Shown: piece by piece, positions 19,901 through 59,100 of the stretch
Layout: each line of letters begins with the position of its first letter
How positions within the stretch are numbered: position 1 is the stretch's first letter
NCBI GenBank assembly: GCA_024516035.1
Contig: CM044957.1
Location: forward strand, 21,864,570-21,928,569
Origin: Bactericera cockerelli
Lineage: Eukaryota > Arthropoda > Insecta > Hemiptera > Triozidae
Direction of reading: 5' to 3'
DNA: 64,000 nt
Notes under the pieces: generated by a model
Seen by the model: only the letters and a program-made list of their open reading frames with translations
The model's database searches: none
Told to the model about the DNA's origin: nothing
Position numbers and translations under genes: made by a program

Positions 19901-20508
19901 TATATTAAAAATCAATCATTATTATACATCCCCGACCCCCACAATTTTGATGCCCCACCCTCATTAGTACACACGATCGATATAAGCTAGCTACATTTTA
20001 AATAAAAGACGGATTTAGAATACTTGAGAGGACATTAGGATGCGACCAAAGAGCTTCAGAGAGTCTATAACGCCATATTGAGTTCAATAGGCCACGAGGT
20101 CACAGCTTACCCTGATGCTTTCTGTCAAAAGACCCAGAAAAAAACCAAATATCGATGCACTCGCGATACACCTATAAAAAACTACTACTTTAGCTATGAA
20201 AAATAATCCGAACTTCCCTAAATAACGCCCTAATTAATATATAACCGAGACCGAAATTAAACTTTTCAGCCCCATAGAAAAACCAGCAAGCTCAGATCAA
20301 TAATTACATGTTTTGAACTAAGCAAGAGGAGTAAGATGCTCACCAACAAATTATGACCCCTGATATCTCTCCATTTATCCACAGGTTCTGCATAGGCTGT
20401 AACATTTTCACTATTTTTGAAAAATTCTAGGAATGTTGTCTTTCCACTTCCAATGTTTCCTTCAACAAACACAGTGAAATGCTTTTTGCTGCCCAAAGCT
20501 GAAGCCAT
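467..20508 (-). CDS. dNK: deoxyribonucleoside kinase (dNK/TK2 family), 5' part, four exons
   Basis: The gene phosphorylates deoxyribonucleosides in the nucleotide salvage pathway. The coding exons, in transcript order, are 20508-20344, 10238-10105, 1313-1195 and 621-467, with junction phases 0, 2 and 1, all consistent. The first exon carries the P-loop GNIGSGKTT and the sugar/base-site stretch EPVDKWR. The second has LMYENAPRW and ends in ERSIHSAR, the family's catalytic/arginine motif. The third holds DSWYEF. The fourth has [18 protein letters not shown], the LID region, followed by [10 protein letters not shown]. These motifs occur in the order known for insect dNK and vertebrate TK2/dCK. 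The last exon either ends at a GTAAAC donor (position 466) or reads on to a stop at 425; the C-terminal strand of the fold is missing, so a further exon beyond the window is likely. Introns 1 and 2 (10.1 and 8.8 kb) are filled by transposons. Confidence 0.93.
645..956 (-). pseudogene. LINE reverse transcriptase C-terminal fragment
   Basis: The translation contains [28 protein letters not shown] and [16 protein letters not shown]. This parallels the C-terminus of the plus-strand jockey-like LINE at 5770-6000 ([26 protein letters not shown]), so it is a decayed relative. It sits in dNK intron 3 in the same orientation as dNK. Confidence 0.75.
940..1050 (+). repeat. SINE family D tail fragment
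   Basis: The segment from CCTCCCATTTGGGATTTTTA through TTAAATAAGGTGATATTATT matches the tail of the SINE at 55690-55880 almost base for base. The tRNA-like head is missing. It ends in a TTA-rich microsatellite. Confidence 0.75.
1195..1313 (-). CDS. dNK: dNK exon 3
   Basis: The acceptor is CATCAG|G and the donor ATTA|GTAAGTTG. It encodes [20 protein letters not shown] then [12 protein letters not shown], the conserved segment between the ERS motif and the LID region. Phases match exons 2 and 4. Confidence 0.93.
1380..2272. mobile_element. palindromic non-autonomous DNA element (CAGGGTC ends, TA flanks)
   Basis: Two arms of roughly 400 bp are inverted copies of each other around a short centre near 1800-1860. 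The left end is TA|CAGGGTCTTCATAAAATCTC and the right end reads as its complement, GAAGACCCTG|TA. No coding capacity is visible. TA flanks and a near-complete palindrome suggest a Tc1/mariner-type MITE or foldback element; the autonomous partner is unknown. A single related arm lies at 61200-61570. Confidence 0.85.
2329..2450. repeat. compound microsatellite (TC)n-(CTCA)n-(CA)n
   Basis: A run of TC from about 2336 to 2372 grades into CACT and then CA repeats. Apparent ORFs here are only repeat translation. Confidence 0.95.
2529..3645. repeat. composite of ACAGGGTGG-type interspersed repeats with an inner foldback
   Basis: Several ACAGGGTG ends occur at about 2529, 2654, 2788, 2921, 3075, 3483 and 3611. 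Segments 3075-3240 and 3475-3645 are inverted copies. The same order of modules recurs in inverted orientation at 30610-31690, including the stretch around TAGGGTACATGTCC (2599 here; complement-oriented partner near 31613). No protein domain is recognisable. It is most likely a degenerate TA-inserting DNA element family. Confidence 0.7.
3700..3895 (-). repeat. tRNA-derived SINE, family A (inverted copy)
   Basis: Read on the minus strand, the head CACCGTGGCAGAGTGAGTTA, the B box GGTTCGATCCC and the body matching 160-230 are all present, with a few substitutions relative to the copy at 85-280. Confidence 0.8.
4008..4072. repeat. short hairpin-forming repeat
   Basis: AGGGCGGAATTAATAG at the left is mirrored by CTATTAATTCCGCCCT at the right. 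The loop holds GTAATACCTCTGTGGTGC. Parts of the same sequence recur at 36050-36092 (complement) and 45188-45220. Confidence 0.7.
4080..4500 (+). pseudogene. LINE reverse transcriptase 3' fragment with A-rich tail
   Basis: One frame reads [20 protein letters not shown], the conserved thumb motif of non-LTR reverse transcriptases. The frame then decays. The stretch ends with an A-rich tail (AATAAAAAAATAATAAAAA) near 4480-4500, just before the next LINE. The 3' part (about 4300-4360) is shared with the palindrome at 40650-40880. Confidence 0.65.
4507..6351 (+). mobile_element. 5'-truncated jockey-like LINE
   Basis: It contains a reverse transcriptase without the upstream endonuclease, followed by a 3' untranslated region that ends in a (TTA)n tail at about 6329-6351. 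Truncation at the 5' end is typical of incomplete target-primed reverse transcription. It lies in dNK intron 2, opposite to the gene. Confidence 0.85.
4515..6000 (+). pseudogene. jockey-like LINE reverse transcriptase, frameshifted
   Basis: The first frame (4515-5789, 424 codons) covers the reverse transcriptase fingers and palm: [14 protein letters not shown], the [10 protein letters not shown] box with the first catalytic Asp, [13 protein letters not shown], and the FADDVKIY active-site box. Near 5740-5790 the reading frame shifts by +1. The thumb/C-terminal part then continues to the stop at 6000 ([34 protein letters not shown]). The N-terminal endonuclease is absent. The element is therefore dead but fairly young, with a single frameshift. 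It could equally be called CR1/jockey superfamily; I cannot place the clade without a tree. Confidence 0.85.
6360..7797 (-). pseudogene. restriction-like-endonuclease LINE (R2/R4/Dong group) C-terminal remnant
   Basis: Two minus-strand frames, 7769-6972 and 6841-6527, separated by a frameshift and short gap, encode the post-RT region of a LINE. The first includes [35 protein letters not shown] and [16 protein letters not shown], then a CCHC-like knuckle [18 protein letters not shown]. The second reads [20 protein letters not shown] and [16 protein letters not shown], the PD-(D/E)XK-type nuclease. The reverse transcriptase core upstream is missing (5' truncation near 7797). The family is distinct from the intact R2-like element at 16379-19915. 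Confidence 0.8.
7898..9732. mobile_element. palindromic DNA element with CAGGGTGTCCCG ends and TA flanks
   Basis: The left arm 7898-8281 and right arm 9351-9732 are inverted copies; CAGGGTGTCCCGTATACAGA at the left equals the complement of the right end, and both ends abut TA. The ~1.07-kb centre holds a SINE-A tail fragment (about 8540-8650) and a LINE-H 3' end (8781-9170). No transposase frame is visible. A single related arm occurs at 44698-45160. Confidence 0.85.
8781..9170 (-). mobile_element. LINE 3' end (family H) inside the palindromic element
   Basis: On the minus strand it carries GGTGGAAGAGAAAGCCACAA, GCTTTAAACCTCGCCC and then a downstream AATAAAG near the (TTA)-rich end. These parallel the copies at 9735-9850 and 10441-10930. 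The stem of its hairpin differs by paired substitutions. Confidence 0.6.
10105..10238 (-). CDS. dNK: dNK exon 2
   Basis: The acceptor is CTTTTTAG|GCATTG and the donor GCAAG|GTTTGTAAG. It encodes [19 protein letters not shown] and then [11 protein letters not shown]. The 134-nt length ends in phase 2, which exon 3 completes. Confidence 0.94.
10441..10930 (+). mobile_element. LINE 3' end (family H): ORF C-terminus, 3' UTR, poly(A)
   Basis: 10441-10547 encodes [20 protein letters not shown] to the stop, the usual C-terminal signature of CR1/jockey-type LINE ORFs (NAVRLWN.LP). The 3' UTR has pyrimidine-rich runs and the hairpin ATTGCC-ACA-GGCAAT at about 10757-10771. AATAAAGC is followed by a poly(A) tract at 10900-10930. 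The copy is severely 5'-truncated. Confidence 0.8.
10948..11125. repeat. CAGGGTG-type repeat fragments
   Basis: AGGGTGTCCCACGAG at 10952 and GCAGGGTGTAACAGAAGTAG at 11053, with a following CAAGGTGTCGTTAACTTTC, resemble modules at 2654-2720. The DIRS-like element begins immediately after, so it may have landed in this repeat. Confidence 0.5.
11659..11868 (-). pseudogene. tyrosine recombinase C-terminal remnant of the DIRS-like element
   Basis: The translation has [40 protein letters not shown]. In DIRS-type recombinases the end of the catalytic domain reads H..R.. then ..L..A.W...STF..FY. Here the second Arg and the terminal Tyr can be aligned, but the conserved His position is Gly and the upstream half of the enzyme is missing. 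Assignment rests on this short motif and on gene order. Confidence 0.55.
12082..13187 (-). pseudogene. DIRS-like reverse transcriptase/RNase H, frameshifted
   Basis: Minus-strand frames overlap in series (13187-12702, 12801-12472, 12607-12140, 12402-12082), implying at least three frameshifts. Visible motifs are [20 protein letters not shown], then [17 protein letters not shown] (active-site YLDD) and [16 protein letters not shown]. After these come [19 protein letters not shown] and the RNase H start [16 protein letters not shown]. The first catalytic Asp motif expected upstream is missing, because the 5' part fuses gag-like sequence ([20 protein letters not shown]) directly to the LPFG box. 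That points to an internal deletion. Confidence 0.75.
13405..14139 (-). pseudogene. gag-like ORF of the DIRS-like element
   Basis: A 244-codon frame without recognisable zinc knuckle. Its first ~30 residues are translated from the GAGCCGACATTTGGCCGT-type tandem repeats, so the true start is uncertain. Residues such as [20 protein letters not shown] and a C-terminal coiled-like stretch [16 protein letters not shown] are of the kind found in DIRS gag proteins. Identification comes mostly from position upstream of the reverse transcriptase. Confidence 0.5.
14080..14350. repeat. degenerate ~18-bp tandem repeat in the DIRS-like element
   Basis: Variants of GAGCCGACATTTGGCCGT occur about a dozen times. 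They lie between the gag-like ORF and the right terminal repeat, in the element's 5' leader. Confidence 0.8.
15076..16378. other. dNK intron 1 spacer between DIRS-like and R2-like elements
   Basis: No gene is seen. A hairpin of about 115 bp lies at 15383-15497 (GCTTAGGTTAGGTTGAAATT mirrored by AATTTCAACCTAACCTAAGC). The part nearest 16378 may be the 3' UTR of the R2-like LINE, but no poly(A) or tail fixes its end. Confidence 0.5.
16379..19915 (-). CDS. R2-like LINE polyprotein: zinc finger, reverse transcriptase, restriction-like endonuclease
   Basis: A single uninterrupted 1178-codon frame. The N-terminal third is Ser/Asn/Thr-rich and ends in a C2H2 finger ([19 protein letters not shown], near residue 256). 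The reverse transcriptase follows: [42 protein letters not shown] with the first catalytic Asp, [14 protein letters not shown], and FADDLCIL at the active site. Next come a CCHC-type knuckle [20 protein letters not shown] and a PD-(D/E)XK-type endonuclease ([20 protein letters not shown]). This order is that of R2/NeSL-type LINEs, which encode one ORF and nick DNA with the C-terminal nuclease. No frame damage suggests recent activity. It lies in dNK intron 1, not in ribosomal DNA. Clade (R2, NeSL or related) is unsettled. Confidence 0.88.
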   Translation of the reverse strand: MIFNILDHLPVTTMLEEEGNSDKRVRKVPARLQECILNTNKKSVIKRLPTVNEAPELKISATPTQVIAFNTMETNTKEGSNEEQYHQSSFTENQYGTITDNLQASEAISPSKSFPTNEDNRYSIDLIESTVNNTLFTQLETTSQDEMIPDQSVRHLSTVSNGNHSIDSSLSSVIVYNTNQLENDVTPVTNSCLDNLNLENNPEIPSITIDNSNDTRIVSNNPNITVIDSSQEILDSILPRESVIKSVTDDQVQTACVYCGKLYKHVNKHISAAHPEEYRQRLANKYSKKSNNVSSSEQDKSDSDKTEIEKGISEWSKKNWVSMDPDEVNEQVDKFQIFLKNAIFKLPGPKHPAVKYFEIRKKKKNVASQNSNFKDTSNPQRKTKRDREKRREAYIYESVQFQYYNCRKKAVRKVVDEKSRACPIQMETLTDHFKSTLGKSNPHTDSRTPQCPTGSNEDMDTISIEEIDNMIKSLNMDSSAGPDGVLTRAVRIKGVNHILHQIFNRMMAIGKIVPCLKNARTVLIDKGGQTEEIKNWRPITILPILRRGFEIIMEKRLRDYVVINPNQRGFISKPGCSINLAIVEKALETAKQEKSDLVCIFLDINQAYNNVGHSQVKKALDLTNTPDILKNIVMDCQTHNKIVLEVGNNKSTSIEIKQGLMQGAPLSPLLYNIATNHIIDEITEDGIIKNLGVKIVDGVQMLAQAFADDLCILCKSTDAAETMYKLIESRLTELGMQLNPTKTQCIVIKKGILNTTEFNLSGITVTPASNTNTIKYLGTTLTDQIILDKDSTMSNLNEKINKIVTSPYLKAEQKMNILNTYVWPMLTFKLQHTPIDRWTVPFVEDLDKMVRSAVKQILEIPKDVPDSALYSDKNMRGLNVFRFSWEILIQRLNLFSNLQKQGNIIKKIKNLDLEISRCLTTLRITNVDELNTKKIRENLRLQEFQSWSELKSKGLGVCLFGEVKSHNKWLTTKEGLTNSEFTELVKMSTNTAAVRAIPGRSQDGNQCSRCQGKNKPIETLAHVLGSCPFGHLTRINRHNAVQSLIANELKKQYEVHEVTGIATDGSSRRIDIIAINRKEKKATIIDPTIRFESNPNQPEEVNEEKRNIYVPTVPYYKEKYDLIDIDVRGLLIGARGTITSQVKSFSTEFNIPESCLKNISQSVIRASIQILRNHIYGI
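19916..20343. other. dNK intron 1, 5' end, and possible LINE 5' leader
   Basis: Contains the probable 5' untranslated region of the R2-like LINE (extent unknown) and the dNK donor CATAATTTGTTG|GTGAGC at its right edge. I see no other gene. Confidence 0.4.
20344..20508 (-). CDS. dNK: dNK exon 1 (P-loop exon), cytosolic start
   Basis: Starting at Met 20508 it encodes [20 protein letters not shown] and continues through [10 protein letters not shown] and [15 protein letters not shown] to the donor. The frame is also open upstream to a Met at 20658. That adds 50 residues without Asp or Glu, a possible mitochondrial presequence. Confidence 0.93.
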
Positions 20509-26691: not shown

Positions 26692-28212
26692 CTACTCCTG
26701 GGGGGGAGAGGCTTCTTCAAATTTAGAAGGCTCATCTCCAGTAGCTGTTTTATCTCTTGCTTCATCTTCATTTACAATTTCAGTGGTATCCATTGGGGAA
26801 TCAATATTAGGTATAGGACTATTTATAATTGGATCTTCAGTCTTTTCATGTGTATTATTATGAGGAACAGATTTTTGGGATTGAGAAAAATCAATTGTAG
26901 AAGAGTAGATCTTCTTTAATTTATTGATTACTGGATTCTTAAGAGGGGAAGATTGTGCATAGCTATGTTCAGAAAGTTTATTATCAATAGAGGAAATGGT
27001 ATTTTTGTTAAGACAAACACCATTGGGTCCTTTGTATTGGTCCACATTGATGAGTTGTTCTTTTATAATGTTTGATTGAAAATTTGGAAGATGCTTTTGA
27101 GGAGGAAAGGATTTTTTCTTAGGGATCTTGTTGCTGCCGGGAGGAGCTCTCCTCTTGTGGGTTTCATAGGTATTTGGACTGAAGTCATAGATATTCATGG
27201 AGCAGGAAGGAAGGGAAGGAGAATTTACAGCAGAAGTTAGAGGAACTACTAGACTTGGGATAGTAGGAGATTTGGATTGGTTGGACTGGAAATTATTGCG
27301 AAGAGTAGGAAAGTTTTGTTGATCAAGCCTTGATTGCACTTTAGAAGAGAAGGATTTGGCATTTTTTCTAGGGAATATGATTGCTGCTTCTTGAAAGCAA
27401 AGAGGTTGTACCATCATTATCTTTTTGATGTCACATTGTCTGATGTATTCTGGGCAATCTTTCTTGGAAATAGGAGAATGATTACCACGGCAATGTAGAC
27501 ATGAAGGAGTTGATTTTTGACAGTTGTGGGAAGTGGAGTTAGACATGGATTCAGAGCAATTTTTACATTTTTGTTCACTATTACATTTTTTGCTAGAGTG
27601 ACCAAATTGAAGGCAGTTAAAACATTGCATTACATTTTGAATGTATGGTTCAATTTCACCTCTTACATGAAATAAGTAAATGTAAGAAGGGAGGGATTGA
27701 CCTTCAATCATCAGTTTTACTGTATTGCTTGGGACATATTTACTTTCTCCAACTTCATTGGGTACTCGGCGATTAAGCCTTTGTACTCCAACTACATTGA
27801 AATTGCGAGCATCAATATTTTCTAGTATTTCATCATCAGTGAAGTCAGGATCGATATCTTTTAAAATTGCAAATTTGTATAGGTAATTAGCAGGAATATA
27901 GACATTGTATGTCTTTAGGATTTCAGGATTGGAAGCCAATGTATTGGCATCAGCACAGGAATTACAGCTTACCACAATTTTAGATCTGGTTATACGATTG
28001 AATTGAGGTATACTTGATGAAGGAAGGATAGTGGTTACCATTTGTCCAACTTTAAATTTGCATAAGTAGGGGTATTTCACATTAGGTTGTTTCTTGGTTT
28101 CAAAAATAACTTTATATTGTTCATATTTGACATCTTTATTGTATAAGGAGATTGGTTTAGGCACTTCATTGTCATTGGGCTGGGGGCATTTGCCCCCAGA
28201 GTTATCACCCAT
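26692..28212 (-). CDS. I-like LINE ORF1: nucleic-acid-binding gag-like protein
   Basis: A 506-codon frame upstream of ORF2. The middle carries three consecutive zinc-knuckle-type clusters: CFNCLQFGHSSKKC, then CKNCSESMSNSTSHNC, then CLHCRGNHSPISKKDC. They follow an RRM-like region (residues about 90-190, with VVGVQRLNRRV and SNTVKLMIEGQSLPSYIYLF). The C-terminal half is Ser/Pro/Asn-rich and low in complexity. LINE ORF1 proteins of this kind bind the element's RNA and form the RNP used for retrotransposition. Confidence 0.88.
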   Translation of the reverse strand: MGDNSGGKCPQPNDNEVPKPISLYNKDVKYEQYKVIFETKKQPNVKYPYLCKFKVGQMVTTILPSSSIPQFNRITRSKIVVSCNSCADANTLASNPEILKTYNVYIPANYLYKFAILKDIDPDFTDDEILENIDARNFNVVGVQRLNRRVPNEVGESKYVPSNTVKLMIEGQSLPSYIYLFHVRGEIEPYIQNVMQCFNCLQFGHSSKKCNSEQKCKNCSESMSNSTSHNCQKSTPSCLHCRGNHSPISKKDCPEYIRQCDIKKIMMVQPLCFQEAAIIFPRKNAKSFSSKVQSRLDQQNFPTLRNNFQSNQSKSPTIPSLVVPLTSAVNSPSLPSCSMNIYDFSPNTYETHKRRAPPGSNKIPKKKSFPPQKHLPNFQSNIIKEQLINVDQYKGPNGVCLNKNTISSIDNKLSEHSYAQSSPLKNPVINKLKKIYSSTIDFSQSQKSVPHNNTHEKTEDPIINSPIPNIDSPMDTTEIVNEDEARDKTATGDEPSKFEEASPPQE

Positions 28213-28260
28213 TTTGGGTTGTTTTAAATGTTCTAAGATTATAATTCACATTTTAGTTGA

Positions 28261-28796
28261 AAAATGGCCCGCACAGAAAGAGAAAGAACTATTTTATTAT
28301 ACACAGGAACACGATTCGAAACAGTAAAGGTTCTAACAATTTTACGAAAGACTCGAAATTTTAGGCTTTCTATGAAAACTTGGAAAAGGCCTAAAAATTT
28401 TCCGGAGAAAACCAGAAAAGGTCTTTACTCAACGAGTTTAGATAAGGGAATATGAAGAAAAAAAAATCATCAATTTCTCAGATTCAAATCGTTAGCGTCG
28501 ATGCAACGTCCAGCGAGGTGAAGACTTCGTGATGCTGGCATTCCGGTCCAAACCAGGCTGGGTGAGGTCAATGTAGGTAGCAGGGTTGTAAGTTTCCTGT
28601 GAATGAGAGGGCAAATAATACCATGATATTGAAGAACCTGGAGCCCAATCATAATAAATAAATACTACTACTACATACTCAGATTCATATCACACTTTAA
28701 AGTACATATCATAATTTTCTATATTATAATAACTGTAGGTGTAATCAAAATAATGTTCTAGTATTATTTGGTTCTTACATTATGATCTATATATCA
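28261..28796. other. intergenic stretch upstream of the I-like LINE
   Basis: No gene. 28480-28670 looks like a decayed interspersed repeat, ending CCAATCATAATAAATAAATA and ACTACTACTA, but I cannot name its family. Confidence 0.35.
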
Positions 28797-30610: not shown

Positions 30611-31690
30611 CAGGGTGGTTCATAAGTGAAAAAATGACATGAATTTTTTAAATTGAGTTTTTTTAGAATTTTATTACAGATTCCTAATTTCTGCCTAATT
30701 TTACACACTTTTAGTTGCTCATATTGAAAAACAAACCTATAATGTTGTAAAGGGTGAGTAATATTTTTTTACAACACCCTGTAAGTAGGTAGTCTAAGTT
30801 TCTAAGAGATGTAAAATTGCATGGAAAAACTGAATAGACAAGTGAAACTTAAACTTCAATTTTTTGCAAAATAAAAAAGTTATGGTTTTTTAACTATTAG
30901 TGTCACATGGATTACCCTGTTGATATTTTCTTAAACCATCATGTGTATCCAAAATTGTCTAAAATTTAACAAAGAGTCCAAATCCCAAAGAAAAACACAA
31001 ATTTAAAAACCTTTTTCAATTTTCTACCTAGTTTTTATTGTAAGAAAAACTCAAATTCTTAGCAAAATAAAACTTATGGTCTTTTAACTAAAAATGTTGC
31101 ATGGACCACCCTTTAGATATTCTCTTGAACCTGAAATATCCTAATTGGCAAACTTTAAACCGCCTTCATACTAAAGTTTCTAAATGTAAGAAGAATTTCT
31201 TTCAGATTGGAACTCTTTGTTGATAAATAAGAGTACCCACATGATGGTTTAAGAGAATACCAACAGGGTGGACCATGTGACAATATTAGTTAAAAGACCA
31301 TAACTTTTTTATTTTGCTAAAAATTCATGTCATCAATTCTCTTATGTTTCATGTCATCAATTCACTGTATATATTATTTATTTATTTTTTGCTGCTAACA
31401 GAAAGTGCATGTTTGCATTGTACAAACATTTTCTATTCTTCCAATCCAAAAAATTAAACAAAATCGAGTTAAAACCATTTAGAAGTTTAATTATCAAAGA
31501 AAATTCAGGTCAACCCATCTAAAAATCGCAAATTTGACACTTCAATTTCTGACTTTTATACCACCCTGTATAAAATGAATTTCATGACTGAAAACGCATA
31601 ATTTGGACATGTACCCTTAGATTTTTTATTCTCTATCAGAGGCCAAGTAATTTGAGGTGTCTAACTGGTGGGACACCCTGTAAAGTGCAG
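30610..31690. repeat. composite CAGGGTGG repeats, inverted relative to 2529-3645
   Basis: ACAGGGTGGTTCATAAGTG at 30611, CAACACCCTGTAAG at about 30772, CAGGGTGGACCATGTGAC at about 31264, CCACCCTGTATA near 31561 and ACACCCTGTAAAG near 31673 bound modules seen in reverse order at 2529-3645. 30840-30905 and 31275-31330 are inverted with respect to each other. Confidence 0.7.
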
Positions 31691-34900: not shown

Positions 34901-37900
34901 AAGCCGATTAGAATGAAACAAACTATGTTTGAGAGATAAAAAAAATTACTTTTCAGTAAGGTATAACATTGGGCCTAAAAAGCATGCATAGCGTCACAGC
35001 AATAGTAGAATTTAGAAGGAAACAAGTGTCCTAGTTTCATTGCTCGCAAGTGTATAAGATGAGAAAAGTAAAAAAGCTAGTTTTGACATAAATTTCTCTC
35101 TTTATTTTCAGTTTGTTGAGGGATTAGAAGACATGATTCTGACTTTGAAAAAAGAAAGTGCTGAGCAAGAAAACATTGATAACAGGTTTGTTTTATAAAT
35201 GTGTTTCTTGGTGTTATTTTATCACAATTTTAGTGAGTAGGCCAGAATTATAGGACATTTCCTTATCTTGAATATCCCAATATCTTAGTTTTGCCTATAA
35301 TTCCGCCACGGGCCGCCGCTCACATTAAAGCAGCTACTCATTTTTTCTTATAAGGCACGAGTGGACCCTGAACATCCAAGTAGAGTAATCACCTATATCA
35401 AATCTTTTACACCCTGTATATTCGTCTCTGTGGCTAAAATGGGAAAATGTTGTGAGCCACCACTGCCTTCTGCTCATGCGCTGAAGAAATGTGAGACGTA
35501 GGTTTAAAATAAATGAACGTTCAAGACTTAAGTTTAAAATAAATTCTGCCTCTGTGGCTGATCTGAGTCACTGATGTTGTTCTACGCATGCGTATCCGGA
35601 CAACCGTCACTCGATTCGGTCGAGGGTCGTTCAAGAATACGAGCCTAAGACCCGAATTATGAAACACGATTTTTTAATCTTTGTGGACACTGTCCCTTAA
35701 CTTTCGACTTGACAACAACTGTATATGTCATATCTAAGCCGGTCTCTGTAGCTTTACTGAAATATTTTTTAGAATAAAATCTTTTTTAGAAGACTTATCG
35801 GTCAGCTAATAAATATATAAGGTTTGGCTTAGATTTAGTAATCCTGTTTCATATTACGGCCCTAAAACAACTATTCTATTATTGTTATGTTCTGTGTTTT
35901 TCTCTTTTTTGTAAATTAATATTTAATAATGTATTTTTTTTCAATAGTGTAGAGATATTGTAGAATTGTAGATACCTATTGATTTTGTAACTGTCCTTAT
36001 AAGACGTAAAATCAATTCTTGAAAAAAAATGCGCAAAATATAGACGAAGCTCCACAGAGGTATTACAAAAATGTTTTTAATTCTGCCCTAGGTTTTATAA
36101 TTGAATGCATTGTTTCAAGCGATCTTTGAGAAAAAGATTTGCCGGGTGCTTAGAACCACCCTATACAGTGTACACACTAAGTTTTTGCCAAAGTGGTTAA
36201 AATACCATCATATTGAACATAATATCTGTATCTTTGTCTCATGCTTTCTATCATTTTCAGATCAAATAACGATGCCTTTGTCTCCTATGTAAAAAGAAAA
36301 GATTTCCTCAAAAGATATTTGAACACCAAAAAAGTGGTAAGTTTTTTGAGATAATTGTTCCGAGATGTCCAAAATCAGAGTCCTCAGTTTCAAGTTATAT
36401 CACTGAAAATTAGATATCTTATGCAGCCTTTTCTGGAGTTGGTGGGTGACACTTGAGTCTACTAAAAGCCCTCATTAAAAAAAAATCATCAATCGAAACT
36501 GCCGCTCAAAAGTGATGGTCATGATTTTTCTAAATATTTTAATCATAGTCAAATTCAATGGGCTAAAATGTGTGTTTATAGTTTACTGTAGGTTTTCTGG
36601 GTTATACTTCATGAACAGTTTTCAAATATTAAAACATCAGGTAGAAAGTTATTAACAAAATAGTGAAATTTTTAATTTATTTAGTAATAGGATAACATAT
36701 ACAAAGGTATTTTTCCTAAGCTAAAGCTTCTAAGAAATTTATCCAAAACATGTCACAAGATTGGTCATAATTCTGAGCCAATTTTTCATTTTAATTTGAT
36801 GTGTTACATTTATCTTTTGATGATCCCAACAATATTCTTGACCAGATATACACAAGACTGAATAACGTTTTTAAAGACCATGTTCCTCTCACTTCTATAC
36901 CCAAAATACATAAATCTCCACTATGGTACGGAACGAAAAAAGGTTGAGAACCGCTGCCCTAGTATGTAGTGTAAGATTTTCATTATTATATCCGAAGTAT
37001 TTTTTTCAACATTTTTGACCTGAAAAAGAGAATGATAGAACATGGATTGACTAATGTGTTTCAGAATCATACATCAAACAAGGTGATATCAATGCAGTCC
37101 TTACCGAAGAACAATAGTCCAGAATTGATTCAAAATGAAATCTACCAAAAAGTAACAAATCGATGTTTGGAACAAACCAGAGAGCAACTGTTTGATAGGT
37201 GAATACTTTGAATGTAACTAAATTAATTTTACCTTATGATCCTCTTGAACTGGCTTTTACATGAAAGAATTCAGGAGTTTTTCAATTGAAAGAAATGCAG
37301 TATACCCGTAAAGACAACAGTACAAAATTCTAAAGTACAATTTATATTAAGAGAAGTATATTATTTATATTAAATCATCAGAAAAGTGTTTTCCCAGAAG
37401 CTCACCGAGTAACTCTAATCATTCGCACGCTCCCGCTCTATTCTTGATCTATTCCCGATATCACCGACCTCAGTAGCTTGAACGGTAAGGCGATGGACTT
37501 GTAACCTGGAGGTCGGTGGTTCAAGTCACGGTTTCAACGTGAATTTAGTAAAGCGAGTTTGAGTAGTTGTGATATCACATAAGTGATTAACACAAATATG
37601 ATAACTCTATTCCCGATATCTTTGATGTCTCCTATTTTCACGATAACGAACTATTAGTCCTACAGAGTTCTAATTACACTGAAATTAAAGGTAAATAACT
37701 GCTCTACAACTTCATGACTTTCTCGTAGATAGAGTAGCTTAGCCAATTTTTTCCTCAAAAATCGACTAGAACTACAATTTCGAACTTTTGCGAAAATTTG
37801 TCTAATTTTAAAAATTAATGGCATATCTCAGAATTTATTTGACCTATAGAGCAGTAATTGCGCTCTATATATCTCAAGTTTATTTTTGCTGTCCAATCAA

Positions 37901-47132: not shown

Positions 47133-50100
47133 CTGTAAAGCAAAAGAAAAAGAAATTAAAGTTAAAGATCGTTTAAAAACGCAATGATTGTTTTTCCAAA
47201 GCATTCTAGTTATTAGATCCATCATATACAGATACACTTTAGAGCATAAGTGAGACAGAATTTTTTAAAGTTTCATTTTATTGAATATCTTTGAAATACT
47301 TTATATTGGAGGGCCAAAACATACCTAATACAAAGAATAAGTCTCATCATACAGCGTGGTAATACTGCAAGTATAATGGCAGCATTACCAGCAGAAGAAA
47401 AAATGGATGCCATTTACTACCTTTAAATGTGAGCGGTTAACTATGTACTCATAATTGTGCAGTATAATAAATTGAGAGTATAATGTAATTAGCTTTATAC
47501 ATTTGATCCGAATTTACTAGATACATTGGAGAAATGTGTCTATTAAAAGGCCATCAAGTGACCATATCGAAAAACAAATTTCATCAACAGAAAATGGCCT
47601 ATTTATATGACTCACTTTTACACCGACCTAATAAACACATAAAATTGGGAGTAAAGTTGATGTTTTCCGAATTTTCAATTGAACCAGATACTTGTTATCA
47701 TTTTATATGATAGTGTGCAAAAATTCAATTTTTTTAAAGCCTTCATTACAATGGTAAAAAGGAAACAGTGTCAATCACACATGTGCAAAATCTCTTAGAC
47801 CAGAGGCTATCTACTCACCAAAACTTGAGTATATTGAGTACTAATCATTCTAGTGTCCAGTGGATAAGAAATGAGCTCCAAAATTTACCCACAACTATCT
47901 TAAAAGGCCACCTAATCAATTTGACACCCCCAGATCAAAGGTCTTGATCCGATAAGTTGCCCTTGGCAACGTCTCTTCTACTTCTGAAGCTTCATATCTG
48001 AGTAGAGTATTAAAATTGGTGAGTATTACAATAAATGGCATTTTCTTTTCTAGCATTCTACCAAAGAAAAAATCATTTTGAAACTTCAGTTGTGAAAATA
48101 TAGGCATTTGAAATGTCAAGAACTCATGAGAGTCAGTTCTTATTTTAATACCCCCCCCCCCCCCTCCCCGAAAATGACTGATAGTATCCTCAAATCCAAA
48201 ACCAGACCACAGTCAACTTTGAGTTGCTTGATGAGTATCCAGTTGGGACGCAACTGTGATAATTATATAAGCGGTGGTGTGTGATTTTACCTTTGTTATA
48301 TTCATCTGTTTCTGATTCTTCCTCACTTGATTAGGGTAAGCATTAAATCAAGAACACAAGCAGGTGAGTATAATTACAATTTCATTATTATATAGACACT
48401 TTAATACTATAAATATTATTAGACTTTTTTTTCTTTTGTTTAAGTTTGCTTTGAAGATGCCCTTAGTAGCGCAAACATTTAGTATGTATGTATATTATGT
48501 AAATAAGATATTTGAGGACGTTAAACAGGAAGAAGACCAGTGTCTTGCTAGATAAACAGACTAGCCAACACCCTAACAAGCGAGGCTAGCTTGCAGTTTT
48601 TTCCAAGATTGTAATGGCTTATAAAAAAAATCTAAGTTCTCATGATGGTTGATCAATGATCATGATCACACGGGACGAGCGAACCAAAGTTGGCAAGAGA
48701 ACATCACTCCTCCAGCTCTAGCACTGCTGATTACAACAAAAAACAGTTTTAACACATAGACGACCGGCATGTTTTTAGTAAGTTCTCCCGTGGGACCGGC
48801 GATGTTTAGGCTATTCACAGGCGTAGTACATGCGTGTACCACCGGTGGTACACCCGGTCCATTCCGTACAGACACGCGTGTACTACCGGTGGTACACGTA
48901 AGTTCGTACGGAATGTACCACCGGTGGTACACCCGGTCGGATAGCCGTATTATCGCCGATCCCACAAGAGAATTCACGAAAAACCATGCCGGTCGTCTAA
49001 GTGTTAAGTTCAAGTTAATAAAAAAAATCTTCTTCTTTAATAAATCTAATCTACAAAATGAAAGATAAAAATGACTAATTTAGTTTTATGTTATGTTGGG
49101 TTGGATTGGCAACTCACATAGTAAGCATTTCACAAATAAATTTAAGTTATACAGGGTGGACCAATAAAACGTTTACACCCGTTGATGGTAGATTACTGAT
49201 GACATTTCCAGCCCGGATCTGCAATCCGTTTTTTCGGATTCGCCTTTGTAACTGCACAAAGTGATTTTTTGCAACTTTCTGAAAAAGTCCGACTTTGGCT
49301 TATTCTTCAGGTCAGTACTTTTTTCCTGTTTAAGATGAGTTGATTCTGAACAATTCTGCTGGAATAACGAAAAAATCTATTAGGAGATAATTTTTTTAAC
49401 TCACGGGAGGACGGACACTTAATGGTGACCTTTGCGAATCTATCAAGGTAAATTCAAGATCAACTTCAGAATCTTAAATGGATCGAGTGAACTTTATTGC
49501 ATATTCATGTTTTCTGTACATATTTAATCTTATTTGACTATTTTCATTCTACTTTTTCCCCCCATTTTTTCAAGGTCATTTTTTTTGGACTGTATCATAC
49601 ACGTGTGACGTATCAAATTAAACGTAAAAAACAATACAACAGAAAAAAATACCGTTGGTCATTTTTATTACGTGTAATCATTAGTCTTGAATTATAAAAT
49701 CAATTATGGAAAACGGGGAAAAAGTTAAAGTGAAATGTGATATTTGCCCTATTTTCACATTCAGCATTACAAGACCTTTAATTTAATGTTGATGTTACAG
49801 TTGAAGAAAAAGTTGACCTTGAAAAAATTAAAGTGAAAATGTGTTATGAATAGTTTAATAAGATCAAAATTACATGGATAGTCTCAATATGCAATAAAAT
49901 TCAGGTCAATCCATTTAAGATTTTTTTAAAAGAAATTTAGCCCAGATGGAAAGCAAACCCACAATCTTGAAGCTCTATCGCTGGCGCATTAGTGTGATAC
50001 TTACTCAGACTCAGGAATGGTATACTCAGGGGTGGCTCTTTGCTGGAGATGCAAGGGGCTAGGTGCCATCGACCTCCTACTCAGAGAAAGCTCCGGGGGC

Positions 50101-53100
50101 CTCATACCGAGACTATACGGACGCAGAGGGGATGGTCTGCCCCCGTCCTCTCCCCCCAGGTAGGTCGAGGAACAGTGGTCTTCCTCGGCTGTGGAACAAG
50201 AGAAAAACATTCATATGTACATATATCATTAACCTATCCAGACCTGCTGGAGGCTCACTTTAGGGACTCAGGGGGCCGAATCGGGGATCAAAATATAAAT
50301 TGACCTTGGCAAAATTAAATACACCTCCTGGTAAAACTATATCTTTAAAATAAAACAACAACAAAAAAAATTGGAATGTAAGCCAACTTTGTACATTCAC
50401 ATTTTTCCAGCTTATTTACTTTTGTTATTCATAATGTTTTAGTTGTGCATGAACCTAGATTTTCGTACAAAAAGAACTGATATCCCTCCAAAAACACCAC
50501 TTCGTGTTTACAAACGCACACACATAACCCCCCTCCCCCCCCCCCACACACACACTTTTCTGGCCTGATCTTTTTTTGGATCGGAACTTTGCCTATTTTT
50601 CACATTTTAATTTTTGTGGGATACTAAATACTAAGAACATTGCTTGAAATAGAAACCACTCACCTGTATAAGGGAACGAGTACTTGTCGTTTCCATAATT
50701 GCTCATCTTTTCTTCTCCATCTGAGGGTAGATAGGAGGCGATATAGGGATCAGTGGCGTAATTTACACCTACAGAAGCCACAGTATGACACACGGTGGAT
50801 TTACTAGGTAGAGTGTCAGTGTCAGATGTTGAAGAGAGAGACAGGTTTGTCCAGCGATGTTGTTGAGTGGGCGACGCGGAGTAGATCTCTTGATCTGGGA
50901 GGAAAAGAGAAACGAGAACTTTGTCAAGTTATGTTTTTTCAAAAACAATTAGAGTTGGTACAATTGTACACATAGAATTATGAGTAATTTTCCGTACGGG
51001 GTCTGTTATATTTATCAGATAAGGAAGGCGTAAGTAAAGCCGCATGTAAGCACTTTTAGAAGGCTAATCTCATAACATCAAAAAAACTTACACATTTCAC
51101 ATTATTAACAAACAAAAAACCAACAATCCCTGAAAGTTTCAGAGGGGGTCTAATTTTTTTTAGTGAATTTCTAGAGTTCTGGGCTTAATAGCTTTACTTA
51201 TAAAACTTTGCCCTTATAAGATTTTTTATTATTATTATTATATTCTGCAGTCCAGGCCCCCGCGTTATTTTCCAAATAACTGGATGAGTGAAAAACCATC
51301 GTGAGGACTTGAAGCTTTCTTTTTAATCCAAGCTTTTTAGTTTTTGTTACTCTTAGTTGCCACTCCTCATAAGTTATGTTATATTAGCTTAGGAGATGTT
51401 ATTTTTGTAAATTTAAAATTGTTAATTAAATAAAAATAAACCAAATCAAATCAAAAAAAAAAATCATGCGACAGCGGAAAAATCTTGTCGCGGGCACCAC
51501 ATGGGTTCACTTACCGGGGTACTGGTGCGGGCACCACATGGGTTCACTCACCGGGGTACTGGTGCGGGCACCACATGGGTTCACTCACCGGGGTACTGGT
51601 GCGGGCACCACATGGGTTCACTCACCGGGGTACTGGTGCGGGCACCACATGGGTTGACTTACCGGGGTACTGGTGTGGGCACCACATGGGTTCACTCACC
51701 GGGGTACTGGTGCGGGCACCACATGGGTTCAGTGGTTCACTCACCGGGGTACTGGTGCGGGCACCACATGGGTTCACTCACCGGGGTACTGGTGCGGGCA
51801 CCACATGGGTTCAGTGGTTCACTCACCGGGGTACTGGTGCGGGCACCACATGGGTTCACTCACCGGGGTACTGGTGCGGGCACCACATGGGTTCACTCAC
51901 CGGGGTACTGGTGAGGGCACCACCACATGGGTTCACTCACCGGGGTACTGGTGAGGGCACCACCACATGGGTTCACTCACCGGGGTACTGGTGCGGGCAC
52001 CACACTGGTTCACTACTCACCGGGGTACTGGTGCGGGCACCACACTGGTTCACTACTCACCGGGGTACTGGTGCGGGCACCACACTGGTTCACTACTCAC
52101 CGGGGTACTGGTGCGGGCACCACACTGGTTCACTACTCACCGGGGTACTGGTGCGGGCACCACACTGGTTCACTACTCACCGGGGTACTGGTGCGGGCAC
52201 CACACTGGTTCACTACTCACCGGGGTACTGGTGCGGGCACCACACTGGTTCACTACTCACCGGGGTACTGGTGCGGGCACCACACTGGTTCACTACTCAC
52301 CGGGGTACTGGTGTGAGGGCCAGCGCGGGGTGTACACGGACTTGACGTTGGCGCTGGTGGGGAACAGCTGGGAGTTGGATATGATGTTGAGCTGGGCGGG
52401 GGGAGGGGAGGAGACCCCGCCCACCAGCTTAGCACGGCGCCGGGTGGAGGAGGGGGGGTGGGAGCTCTCGTCGTCGTCACTCGAGTGGGACGAGGCCAGG
52501 TCCAGACTGCGCCCATCCACCGACTGGAAAGAAAATGAATAACCGACCTCAGTAGCTTGATCGATAAGGCGGCGGACTTGTAACCTGGAGGTCGGTGGTT
52601 GAAGTCCTGGTTTCAGCGTAGATTTGGTAAAGCGAGTTTGAGTAGTTGTGATATCACGAAAGTGATTGACACAAATATGATGAATAAGTAGTACTCATCA
52701 TAATAGGACTCCCTGCTTCGAATCGACATCTATCCTTCCAAGAAAGATGGTCTTTTTAATATTGTCACTGAGCTACCCTTACTAAATACATTAAAATTAT
52801 CAAGACACCTATCTATAGTAATCAACTCAAAAGTCTCGCTTGTAGGTTACAGCAACAGCAGTGAACGTGCTATGGGCTCATGCGTACTCGCTCACGTAAT
52901 ACATCCTGATAATTCTACTCGTCATGTTCATCTTGTTTGCGCAAAATCAAAAGTTGCGCCTATGAAAAAATTAAAGTATGTCACAATACCACGTCTCGAA
53001 CTTTGCGCGGCACTCATACTAGTTAAGTTTATTTCAGTCGTTCTCGAGATATCGTGTTCACAGACACACATACAGACGGACGAACAGACCAATGGCCGAA

Positions 53101-56100
53101 AACAACTTTTTTGATAGGTTATGAACTTTTTTGGTAGGTCATGTCCAGAAATATGAAAAACTGGGTAGGTCAAATTTTCGAAGAATACAATACTTTCCTG
53201 ATTATTTAGAGAAGGAAATTCAAAATATCCAAGACTATTAGATTTGATATACCTACCTCGGAATCAGAATCACTGGTTTGGTGTTTGCTCACTGATTTCT
53301 TGAAAGTAGTAGTGTCGGAATTGGTACTCTGGTCATAGTTACTGGTGCTAGTAGAATTTTGTCTCAGCCCTGCATCACTCCTAAGAAATAATGAACAATA
53401 GGAAATTAATTAATTCTTTCTACATTTCTACACAAGTGAAAGTCAAGTATAGGGGACCCAAAAAGTTGAGATGGAAAAAATCACTCACTCCCAAAAGAGT
53501 GTGACATCTAAGAAACTTCTAGAGGTCACCACTAAATGTCATTTAAAAAGGTAAGTGTGCCCCGGAACCACTTTCGCATTACTTCAGGGCACTTTACCTT
53601 ACATCCAAAGGAACACTAAACGGAAAATTTCGGCCAGAAATTTCCGCTCCGGCCGGGATTCAAACTCGCAACCAATGCTCTTAACCACTGAGCCACGGAG
53701 GTCGGCTCTAGGCTAAATGTCCCCTTTAGAGCTATGAAAATAATCCTTGGACTGATTTAATGTTGGATTATCATCTGTTTGTTAAGGTTTTAATTATTTT
53801 AACACTTTCACCGCCAACTGTATTTTCGACTATTTTCATTCATAGGCCAGGCGTGATTTTGATGTGGTGATACTTCAAAGTATCACTAGCCTGGGGAAGA
53901 GATTTCATGTCTACGCCAAGTGATACTTTTAAGTATCACCTTCATTTCCTGACCGACATGTTCTTGGATACTGCTAGGCCAGAGCAACACATTCCTCATG
54001 TTAAACATATAGAAAGTGTTACTCACAAGTATCACCAGCGTCTTATAGAAGACTCTGTGGGTGATACTTTTAAGTATCACCATGTTCATACTAGCGCATA
54101 ATAGCGCAGAGGTGGGTGATACTTCCATGTATACACCTGGCGCTGAAAGTGTTAAACTACAATGTCTACCTGTAAGGACTACAATGTCTACCTGTAAGGA
54201 CTACAATGTCTACCTGTAAGGACTACAATGTCTACCTGTAAGGACTACAATGTCTACCTGTAAGGACTACAATGTCTACCTGTAAGGACTACAATGTCTA
54301 CCTGTAAGGACTACAATGTCTACCTGTAAGGACTACAATGTCTACCTGTAAGGACTACAATGTCTACCTGTAAGGACTGCAATGTCTACCTGTAAGGACT
54401 ACAATGTCTACCTGTAAGGACTACAATGTCTACCTGTAAGGACTACAATGTCTACCTGTAAGGACTACAATGTCTACCTGTAAGGACTACAATGTCTACC
54501 TGTAAGGACTACAATGTCTACCTGTAAGGACTACAATGTCTACCTGTAAGGACTACAATGTCTACCTGTAAGGACTACAATGTCTACCTGTAAGGACTAC
54601 AATGTCTACCTGTAAGGACTACAATGTCTACCTGTAAGGACTACAATGTCTACCTGTAAGGACTACAATGTCTACCTGTAAGGACTACAATGTCTACCTG
54701 TAAGGACTACAATGTCTACCTGTAAGGACTACAATGTCTACCTGTAAGGACTACTGGAAGTTTTCGTGCTCGACCTGGAGGTAGTGCTGCATGCAGAAAT
54801 GCCAACATTTCTTCTCAGTATCTCAGTGGCCACTCCAGTGTTTCTATAGGAGAGAGAAGATTTCTGTTGGCGATAGAAAACAGATCGGAGAGTTATGGTA
54901 ACAAATATAGAATTTGGTTAAAATGCAAAACAAGAAAAAAAAAAAAAATACAAATATAGAAACAACAATGATTAAGCGTCGGTTTAAAGTGAGTGGTCAG
55001 TTTCTAATTTTCCTGCGAATGGATGGAGCGTAAACCGCCGTCACTAATGACCTCGACATTCAGCATAAAGTGTTACAAAATAGTTATCCTTGTATATTTA
55101 TAATCTAGAATGTAGGAAAAACGGTTTTCTACCATATAAAACAAATTTGAAGAAAATCGGTTATACAGTTTTGAAGATACAAGTGATTGAGTTTAAAATT
55201 GCCACGTGTGTACAATGTGGATCAATCACAAGGAAGTATTGTGTCCATATTGTGGATTAATAAGAACCCCCTTATATGAAAAATAATGGGCCCAGGAAAA
55301 TAACGTGATTTAGAGGTAAAAGATAGATTTTCTTATTTTGTAAGGAGAAAAGAAAAATGCAGAATATCAATGGGAGAAATGGCATGTTTTTGAAATTGGG
55401 CCTTCTTGCATAACATGCAATTCTCAAGGTATCTACCAAGTGGCTGTCGCGTAGCCTTGATCTATAATTGGTCTTAACACTATTGATATAAAGTGAGGAG
55501 TTTGTTTGTAAGCTAGTTTTAGCAAGTTAAAGTACTTTTTAGAACTTTCTTACACTAAAACTCTTCGGTCAATACTGTCTCTTTGCACATTTTTAGGACA
55601 ACTTCTTCTTGCAAATCATTTTTTTTTTGAAAAAAGAGAAAAAAATGATTATTTTTCGGGCCTCTAATTTTGTTCGAGATTTATTAATCAGTGGTAAAGG
55701 CGGCACTCTGTGAATCCAGAGATTCCAGAGGTCATGGGTTCGAAACCCAGCCGGGACATGACAAGTTATCCTCCCATCTGGGATTTTTACCGCATAATAA
55801 TATGTCTTGGGCTTACTGCTGGAATAATGGGACTTCAATAGTCTTAATCGGGCAGTATAAATAAGGCGATATTATTATTAATATTTAATTGCCGACCGAG
55901 AATTTAGAGTAAGTTGAAACACTCACCAGCGGGCCGCTGAAGTTCTGGCTAGTGTCTGGTTCGTCCTCGGGGAAGGGAGGCAGTTTCCTCCCCATGAGCC
56001 TCAGCACGCTGCGCACGAGACTCACTCGGATGCGCGGGTTACCGAAGCAGTAGCCGGTCAGCAGGAACCAGGCATGGGCCGGCACCAGCAGGGACATGGC

Positions 56101-59100
56101 GTACAACAGTCTGGCATCACGTTCCGTGGCAGACACCAGCTCCAGGATCAGGGAGCCTACGAGGAGAGGCAGAGCTACCACGTTTAGCCAGAGGAGCGTC
56201 CTGAAAAAATAGTATTATTATGAAACAAATTCGCGTGTTTGCTAGAGGAAAAATGGCGAGGCAATTAAAAATACTTGTCCCTCGATAGTAAAAGGGATCA
56301 GCACGAATACTTGTCCCTCGATAGTAAAAGGGATCAGCACGAATACTTGTCCCTCGATAGTAAAAGGGATCAGCACGAACGACAGATTACAAAAGTAGGT
56401 TAAGCGCTTTACGTGAAGAAATAAATAAGATAATTTTACCAAATTCTGTTAAAGTGGGAGTTACTAGGTTTGATAGAAACGCCGACTCCAACTACACACT
56501 GTTGTGTTTTATCGAAAAGTATTTTTTTTTTTTTTAAATTTAAACTTTTACAATACTGCTATTCCGATGTTCCCTTTGCTTTAATTCTATTTTAGAAGAC
56601 ATATGCCGAATTTTTCCATATTTCCTCATATAGGTACAGAGTGGTCCAGAAAAACGTTGAGAGCCGTTAATGGTGGGTACATACAGTAATTCCCAATGGG
56701 GATATATAAAGTGTTTTATTCGATGGAAAATCAGTTGTTATTAAGATATCAGTTTTTGGGGCTGAAATTTAGGTAAATAAAATTGAGGCTGAAATTACGG
56801 CAGTGTAAGCATCTTGAGACATCAATAGTTCGTAATAGTTCAAGTAAGTGGAAAAGCTATTGAACTGAAGATAAAAAAAATATGATCTTACCTCAAATTT
56901 CCATAGCCTGCTACATGATGCTTCAGTGTGAACGCAGCCCTCAGTGACAGGAGCATAAGAAACAAGTTGATGAACACCAGTAAGCATACGGGGCCTATCA
57001 AACTCCACACCACGCTCTCATACAGGGAAAGCCAGCAGCTGAAATGAAACCAGAAAAAATGTTAAAACCGGGGTTTAGAGTAAGTGAGCACAACGTTTTC
57101 TACTATCGGCGTTGCATAACTAGTGTGGTATAGTTACTCTATATACGAGGGGGGTACCCAAAAAAAAACCGGAATGGTGTTGTTGCACTATCTGTACTAG
57201 ATGTAAAGTGTTGCTATGCATATCAAATGAAAGGAAATTTTCTTTTGAGTTAGTTTACAGAGTTGGATCAATATATTACAACGGATTGAATTTTTATGTC
57301 GATTTAATTAGAGCATGTTTTGTGCTCTTGTTACATTGAATAATGTTAATTTTCTTCGATAAATTGCGGCTGTAAAGACATGCCTTTTTCTTGGCTATTT
57401 TTTTAAAATAAATAAATTAGGTAATAAAAGATTGTATGTAAAATTCAAATTGGAAAGTCGTAATAATAGGTATTGTAATTTTGTTCAGGATATCTAGAGT
57501 TTTATTTATATAGATACCATATTATCTTTTTTTACCATATTTACGAGTAGAGTAGGCTTAATTGAGTTATTATTTTTGTTGTTTGCTTAGAACTATAATA
57601 TGTGTTAACGGGGTCAACCTTTATTGTAAATATTTTACATATATATAAATACAAATATTTTCTACTACTACTACTACATTTTCTGAGGGGGGAACTCACA
57701 AGACAGAGTTCCCGTACAGGGGGGCGCGCACCCCCACAGCCAGCCCGGTGATGACAGCCGGCAGCCCGTATCCCAGAGAGTAGTAGAAGCCCATCTGACC
57801 GTGGTTCACATCTCTCAGCTCCGTGAGCATCCGGTAGAGATGCAGCACTGCAACCAGCGCCCAGCAGAGGGCCGCCAGCCACAGGTATTGCAGCGAGATG
57901 GCGCTGAGCCGGCACCACAGCTCGTGGGACACCTGCGGCCAAAGATACGTAGTTTTGCAATAGTTCATTCATTTACGGGGGTCATTCGGTCATCTTATTT
58001 ATTTACGGGGGTCGAATCAAACGTACATGGTGCAATGTACTATACAGGAATACGCCCTATCAATGTGATGCATACGAGTGGTGAGAAATACTAATATGCT
58101 GTAAAAAAAAAAAAAAAAAAAACAGTCACAAAATTTGATAAGTTGGATCGAGATGTAGATTGTAAAATATGACAATCATTTAATTCGTAGATGGGAAATC
58201 TATTACACGGTAAATAAATATTTTAATTGATATAGGAAGATTGAAAAAACACACTCACCATGTAAATCCTAGCTTTCATTGCTACAAGGTAGAGAACATG
58301 CACTAGTAAAAGACAGAACGCTTGGTTGGTATAGATACTTGATGAGTTGGTCTTGGCTCGTAGTAACCCCAAAAGTAGAGTAGCTATTACTAGAGCCAGG
58401 ATAGCCATGCCAAAGCCAACCCAGGTAGCCAGCTCTTCATAGGGGTTCATCTCCAGGACGAAGTTTGAATCCAGAAGATCCACTAGTACCGCGTACGTGG
58501 ACAGCTGGTTGCAGGTGCAGTTCACGAGTATGGGATCAGGTGACCTCCACCAATCTAGAAATGGTTATTTAGGTGGTTACAGTGAATACAAGGAACAATT
58601 TTGTATATATACTATTACTACAGAGTAAATATTTATAAAAGTACTATTGGGTTACACCAGCCGCTTCGCTAACCCATCACTCTCTCTCTCTCTCGCGGTC
58701 CGGATTTGGACCGCGGTCCGCTAATTGCCAACCGAGGGGCTATAAGGAACAAATCAACCTAATTTATCATCACCTGGTAAGACTCTGAAGCAAATCTCAG
58801 GCGCAAGTAAACTCTCTCATGAAAACTCTCATAAAGCTCTTCAGAAATCCTTTTTTACCCCCCAGCTAAGCAGGTCAGCACTGCTATCCCCCAGCCGGAG
58901 ATGGGGAAAAAAGTATGAGCAGTGATAATATAGATAGACGCGTTACCTGAGTCATAGGGCATTTCCGTCTTGCAGCCTATCCTGGTCCATTCTCTATTCT
59001 CCTGCGACCACCTCACACATTGGGGATTAGACTTGGAACTGAGGGGAGTATGCCACAGCCATAACCTCACTCTGATTGGCTGCTCTAGAGGTTTTTGCAT

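Follow-up and report, generated by a model that had tools for sequence, protein, structure and literature searches.

Tandem repeat arrays across exon-intron junctions of the stan gene in Bactericera cockerelli

The stan locus and its junction arrays

We analyzed a 64,000-nt stretch of contig CM044957.1 (positions 21,864,570 to 21,928,569 of the forward strand; hereafter, the window) from the assembly GCA_024516035.1 of the hemipteran Bactericera cockerelli, which comprises 565 Mb in 1032 contigs and represents one genome. On the minus strand of the window, 13 exons running from 63454 to 50664 join as one stop-free frame; the joined protein contains GAIN and 7tm_2 domains (Pfam), and the PDB matches of its window part include a CELSR1 chain (8vy2), which is also the best match of two exons from the 5′ part of the gene (E = 1e-101). 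These domains and matches identify the gene as stan/flamingo/CELSR, in agreement with the original prediction made from the window sequence. The same prediction held that two unrelated tandem arrays lie at the 3′ ends of stan exons, with the last exon bases and the 5′ splice site (donor) included in the repeat unit, and this is borne out by Tandem Repeats Finder (TRF), by tables of the individual copies and by the exon frame (Table 1).

The exon carrying array 1 ends at 52301 with ACCCCG/GTGAGT (a slash marks the splice site), and the array begins 13 bases inside it. Every copy starts with CACCAGTACCCCG, which is identical to the last 13 bases of the exon, and continues with GTGAGT or GTAAGT; the combination CACCAGTACCCCG/GTRAGT is kept in 21/21 copies, and AGGT does not occur in the array at all. 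Counted from the exon, eight identical 40-nt copies are followed by two 40-nt copies of another type and then by the 37- and 45-nt types, and, since the junction copy is one of the identical eight, it must itself participate in the turnover of the array. The exon carrying array 2 ends at 54742 with TTACAG/GTAGAC, the array again beginning 13 bases inside it. Its 27 copies differ by one variant base in total, with CAG/GTAGAC present in all 27 and AGGT counted 27 times. The array is bounded by GTAGT at both ends, once inside the exon and once against a TTAA-ended element with inverted termini (357 bp), which ends at 54155, the array starting at 54156. Array 3, the third tandem repeat of the prediction and its internal control, indeed contains no known junction; it is located 70 nt from the acceptor at 56200. 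Among the 31 distinct TRF loci and 33 placed junctions of the window (17 donors and 16 acceptors, from 13 stan exons and four exons of a deoxynucleoside kinase, or dNK, gene), only arrays 1 and 2, which are the two largest, span a junction. That both expand from the exon in the same direction had been part of the original argument against chance; it follows, however, from geometry, because any donor-crossing duplication spliced at its first copy would look alike, and the shared direction therefore adds nothing.

We also covered 180 kb beyond the window, consisting of 80 kb upstream along the gene (contig positions 21928570-22008569, with 5p 1 corresponding to 21928570) and 100 kb on the other side. 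In the upstream 80 kb, which was read after the claim had been made, TRF detected three more arrays crossing stan junctions, two of them at donors and one at an acceptor. The 58-nt acceptor array includes 20 exon bases, while in the 78-nt unit 74 of the 78 bases are exonic and only 4 nt are intronic; for the 37-nt array, the TRF range stops at 31656 and was extended by eye, and at least one copy has lost the donor. In all three, cadherin or laminin-G domains run across the junction if the exon-proximal copy is the one that is spliced: at 5p 31668 the alignment with CELSR1 is gapless across it, and the other two have domain hits across theirs. TRF percent matches in the five junction arrays are 99, 98, 95, 93 and 80, and, since the arrays differ in divergence, their births were probably separate in time. 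At 5p 6903-9030, an element has inserted into the 58-nt array and split it; the long inverted ends of this element read ACAGTATGTTTCAGAAAAGGTGGCCACC.

Table 1. Arrays, exons and associated features at the stan locus (window positions unless marked 5p).
Feature	Position	Strand	Evidence or detail
Array 1: 21 copies, 37/40/45-nt unit made up of 13 nt of exon and 24, 27 or 32 nt of intron with the 5′ splice site	51490..52313	-	TRF (21.0 copies, score 1080); copy table
Array 1, first 5′ splice site (CCCCG/GTGAGT), frame-keeping copy	52295..52300	-	Stop on read-through, starting 5 nt into the intron
stan exon, cytoplasmic tail (...WPSHQYP), 3′ end inside array 1	52301..52523	-	Frame open with 12 other exons; AG/GT ends
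stan exon after array 1	50664..50894	-	Joined-exon frame
Array 2: 27 copies of a 22-nt unit + GTAGT; unit made up of 13 nt of exon, with the microhomology, and 9 nt of intron, with the 5′ splice site	54156..54754	-	TRF (27.2 copies of 22, score 1191); copy table
GTAGT (5-bp direct repeat), copy in the exon, bounding array 2 on that side	54750..54754	-	Sequence
GTAGT, distal copy, intron side of array 2	54156..54160	-	Sequence
stan exon (...TSSSPYR), 3′ end inside array 2	54742..54863	-	Joined-exon frame
stan exon after array 2 (phase 2 junction, R/SDAGLRQNS)	53257..53380	-	Joined-exon frame
TTAA-ended element, like a miniature inverted-repeat transposable element (MITE), adjoining the distal end of array 2	53799..54155	.	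Inverted ends TTAACACTTTCA.CGCCA
Array 3: intronic, 3.1 copies of 36 nt, free of known splice sites	56270..56379	-	TRF score 220
58-nt array, ~17 copies, split by inserted element	5p 6146-6897 + 9023-9245		3′ splice site TTGTGTTGCAG/AGCGCC at 5p 6165
78-nt array, 6 copies	5p 28151-28617		Spans donor GAGAAG/GTAAG at 5p 28544
37-nt array, diverged copies	5p 31513 to ~31680		Spans donor GGATAG/GTAAGT at 5p 31668

Frequency of arrays at junctions

To the junction arrays we compared the remaining larger arrays of the stan region, which was taken as 49.7 kb with 34 placed exons (7501 nt); arrays with a TRF score of at least 130 were counted, the split one once. This threshold was chosen after seeing the array list, and all of the statistics come from one gene. 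Five of the eight arrays span a junction (four donors and one acceptor), and three do not. We give preference to a birth-based null, in which every array is represented by one randomly placed unit, positions entirely within an exon being excluded, because arrays grow from a unit and coverage of whole exons would harm the gene. Under this null 0.60 junction arrays are expected, as opposed to the five of eight seen (P(>=5) = 9e-5); without the discovery pair three of six are seen and 0.51 expected (P = 0.009), with the score raised to at least 200 the count is four of six (P = 4e-4), and the newly read 5′ part alone yields three of five, with 0.38 expected (P = 0.004). These expectations are slightly low, as small exons are probably missing from the placed set.

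Placement of whole arrays gives results that depend on how much exon they may cover. If no more than 80 exon bases are allowed, P = 0.0019 for five of eight and 0.035 for three of six, and eight free placements scored for junction crossings of the same kind give P = 0.0003; a limit of 20 exon bases brings the first two values down to 2.5e-5 and 9e-4, yet one of the real arrays covers 74. With unlimited exon overlap, P is 0.095 for at least five of eight and 0.22 for at least three of six without the discovery pair, which weakens the claim of an excess. In the window, random placement with at most 20 exon bases puts at least two of the three big arrays on a junction with P = 2.5e-4, which becomes 0.013 if the big arrays are confined to 50600-57100, and for all 31 loci at least two are on a junction with P = 0.043. 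The original argument against chance thus stands under the birth-based and 80-base nulls, but not under the unlimited one. We conclude that an excess of arrays at junctions in this gene is suggestive, though not settled. It is not donor-specific, as had been thought from arrays 1 and 2, since one of the five junction arrays occupies a 3′ splice site, and an explanation confined to donors was dropped once the 58-nt array was found there.

A real possibility, although one that we would not call probable, is that the junction arrays are coincidental, i.e. that a genome rich in minisatellites and a gene rich in exons produce junction crossings without any bias. Arrays are indeed common, with 26 TRF loci scoring at least 130 in the 180 kb beyond the window (14 + 12, or 25 if the split array is counted as one) and five scoring at least 150 in the flanks of seven genomic copies of the TTAA element. 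By position there is no excess, as 5 of 68 stan junctions (7.4%) are found in arrays that cover 6.4% of the bases, and a near-identical copy within 1 kb (at least 20 of 24 bases) is present for 11.5% of random positions in the window part of the stan region versus 2 of 33 window junctions. No local duplicate traces were seen at the other 31 of the 33 window junctions, which are at background level; decayed duplications at these junctions were therefore rejected as a candidate. The two values obtained with unlimited overlap point in the same direction, and none of the 12 array loci scoring at least 130 in the 100 kb on the other side lies on a junction of the few exons recognized there by eye, which are too few for a test. 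Against coincidence stand the birth-based values for five of eight, three of six and the 5′ part, together with the placements limited to 80 exon bases.

Other repeats and genes of the area were noted in passing. SINE-like repeats (resembling short interspersed elements, about 90% alike and of tRNA-derived look by eye) occur in the window as two pairs, 52539-52681 with 37460-37602 and 55763-55885 with 926-1048, and one of them ends ~16 nt from the acceptor of the exon bearing array 1. The unit of a 41-bp array (13.4 copies, 5p 50425-50973) resembles by eye part of a SINE-like sequence, and this array is possibly a SINE fragment turned minisatellite. One of the 12 array loci in the 100 kb on the other side is coding: this 27-nt array (segment L024, 7942-8064) is in frame within a minus-strand open reading frame and encodes an ERVPEDDAD-like repeated peptide. 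The dNK gene, with four exons placed, occupies 467-20508 on the minus strand, and its long introns contain long open frames resembling the reverse transcriptases of mobile elements (e.g. 16379-19915). No exact match of the unit of array 1 or array 2 and no confirmed relative of stan was found in viral contigs; the 22-nt unit had no exact match in contigs of prokaryote genomes, which says little, the 40-nt unit not having been sought there. A tRNA scan of the window and an Rfam scan of 50000-58000 found nothing.

Origin and maintenance of the junction arrays

In our opinion, the junction arrays are likely to be ordinary minisatellites, and probably variable number tandem repeats (VNTRs), which were born across a junction and are hidden by splicing. 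Each would have started as a short tandem duplication of DNA crossing the exon-intron junction, generated by slippage or unequal exchange, and the same processes would have enlarged and homogenized the array. The arrays would be tolerated because splicing at the exon-proximal copy, which is either the first donor or the last acceptor, turns the remaining copies into intron and leaves the mRNA unchanged, while wrong copies may be used at a low level to yield transcripts destined for decay, which has been reported for the VNTR of human ABCA7. Slippage at junctions was among the causes originally proposed. It is a likely origin for array 2, since the GTAGT direct repeat at both of its ends is what would be expected if the first duplication had come about by slippage or unequal exchange; for array 1 the proposal lacks this support.

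The placement of stop codons agrees with such an arrangement. Read-through of the first donor runs into a stop that starts 1 nt (array 2) or 5 nt (array 1) into the intron; in the 78-nt and 37-nt donor arrays the stop comes directly behind the split last codon, while use of the next upstream copy in the 58-nt acceptor array would add 58 nt and a stop. Since read-through or use of the next copy meets a stop, the full protein would need the exon-proximal copy, with the others serving as intron.

Several points weigh against this interpretation. The choice of the exon-proximal copy by the spliceosome is deduced from sequence rather than from RNA, and the greater age of the exon sequence in comparison with the arrays is putative, one species having been read. 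Array 1 is not bounded by a perfect direct repeat, so that microhomology is present in only one of the two window arrays. Moreover, the plain random-birth model may be incomplete, because it expects 0.6 junction arrays and five are seen.

A more novel reading is that donors and acceptors are preferred birthplaces or refuges of minisatellites in this genome: duplications would be frequent in exonic sequence, those across a junction alone would survive, being hidden by splicing, the conserved exon copy would reseed the array again and again, and introns would grow from their ends as exon edges are amplified. We put this forward only tentatively and consider it rather unlikely. If junctions are indeed favored, births may be more frequent in exonic sequence, those that span a junction being the only survivors, or arrays may persist longer when they are anchored to a conserved copy in the exon.

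It is improbable that the arrays represent intron gain by tandem duplication, or dual-specific AG/GT arrays that erase themselves from the transcript by multiples of the unit, as in UBC and fission yeast. There are precedents for such behavior (PMC10809524, PMC3629103, PMC4974935), CAG/GTAGAC is present in every unit of array 2, and the 78-nt array reads GAGAAG/GTA; indeed, excision of whole 22-nt multiples from array 2 would leave the mRNA unchanged, because all 27 units contain AG/GT. Array 1, however, has no AGGT, and a duplicated AGGT that supplies both ends of a new intron, as in the Rogers model, is found in neither array 1 nor array 2. Furthermore, the introns continue past the arrays to their own acceptors, so that no new intron is needed.

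Seeding of array 2 by the TTAA element also appears unlikely to us. It would require that the element inserted 14 nt from the donor and that the sequence separating it from the exon was then amplified through repair, or through the stalling of forks, at the palindromes of the element. The abutting ends of element and array favor it, as do several palindromes of ~22 bp inside the element, of the type GGTGATACTTTTAAGTATCACC. At least 39 further genomic copies share 90-98% identity with the element, from a scoring of 40 out of 9427 candidates. Among seven that were read, one has an array ending 15 bp away and another an A run at its end, but none adjoins a listed array, and seeding of arrays by transposable elements as a rule was therefore rejected. 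No such element was recognized at array 1. A second TTAA-ended element, at 48751-49009 of the window, bears TTAACACATAGACGACCGGCATG as inverted termini and contains the palindrome GTGTACCACCGGTGGTACAC in three near-copies; at its ends, in the stretch TTAACAC, it is similar to the first element.

The possible causes listed originally also included selection for donor clusters, or more broadly for extra donors or acceptors that would aid a weak site or regulate splicing, and we find little room for it. In array 1, the 15 nt CACCAGTACCCCGGT, i.e. the exon part plus GT, are identical in 21/21 copies, GTRAGT is present in every copy, and all variants are located deeper in the intron, which, with ~8 variant events, has P = (22/37)^8 = 0.016 if these are evenly spread, a mere hint. 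In U1 pairing energy, ranked among the 17 donors with a U1 sequence taken from general knowledge, the array 2 donor is middling (-8.0 kcal/mol, rank 11/17, tied with the next), but that of array 1 is strong already (-11.0, rank 5/17). In all four donor arrays, use of an inner donor meets an immediate stop, 1-5 nt past the first donor, and, as noted above, the donor is lost in at least one copy of the 37-nt array. Finally, 12 copies of the acceptor array have 13 variant cells in the 20 columns of the exon part versus 8 in the 38 columns of the intron part (copies were picked by the word TTGCAGAG, which is hence constant, and the count leaves aside four on the far side of the inserted element). 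A constraint on the exon part, hinted at by array 1, is thus contradicted by the acceptor array, and, with the exon part of its copies unprotected, selection for working extra sites is disfavored.

Very improbable, in spite of units that hold exon and intron bases around a splice site, is the proposed origin through RNA, whereby junctions would have returned to the gene from pre-mRNA by reverse splicing or template switching: the units are short, unspliced, arranged head to tail and devoid of exon-exon joins, one of them consists of 74 nt of exon and 4 nt of intron as plain duplication of DNA would give, and slippage of DNA is indicated by the direct repeat that bounds array 2.

Comparison with known systems

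The original prediction knew of no named system of this kind; however, the VNTR in intron 18 of human ABCA7 has the same architecture. As described in PMC5954066, its 25-bp unit is repeated 23.7 times in the reference, directly next to exon 18, and contains the donor of that exon; the donor of the second copy sees low-level use, which shifts the frame, and longer arrays are associated with more skipping of exon 19. In each of the five stan arrays, too, the unit directly adjoins an exon and includes the splice site of that exon, and in both cases the copies reach into the intron, the human case being accompanied by RNA evidence. The ABCA7 array, according to the same account, starts at the GT of the donor, unlike arrays 1 and 2, which have 13 exon bases in their units. 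Length variation and effects on splicing are measured in ABCA7, whereas the stan arrays are known from the sequence of one genome; and ABCA7 has one such array, as opposed to five in stan, one of them on an acceptor. A literature search by titles and the openings of abstracts found no arthropod case of a junction-spanning array, from which we do not claim that none is in print.

Dozens of identical splice sites next to the real one constitute a natural test of how the spliceosome chooses among equals. Should the excess at junctions be true genome-wide, minisatellites across junctions would provide a route to longer introns, and splice errors would vary between individuals, as with the human VNTR (PMC5954066).

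A model of minisatellite birth between short direct repeats is attributed to Haber and Louis (1998) in PMC6947457. Array 2, bounded by GTAGT at both ends, resembles it, unlike array 1 without its perfect direct repeat, and crossing of a splice junction is no part of the model in that account.

Tandem genomic duplication as a source of introns goes back, according to PMC4974935, to Rogers (1989) and Hellsten (2011), and fission yeast has 24-nt repeats carrying splice signals (PMC3629103). In the outlines given there, the common features are short units that contain splice signals and are removed from the mRNA; the stan arrays differ in that they extend an existing intron, and array 1 differs in its lack of AGGT. 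In UBC, AG/GT sites in tandem repeats serve as both donor and acceptor, and 792 introns embedded in tandem repeats are reported for the human genome (PMC10809524). Array 2 and the 78-nt array are similar to UBC, as presented in that source, in having AG/GT in each unit, but the UBC repeats are coding domains, whereas those of stan are non-domain repeats in which the acceptor role is a matter of the motif only.

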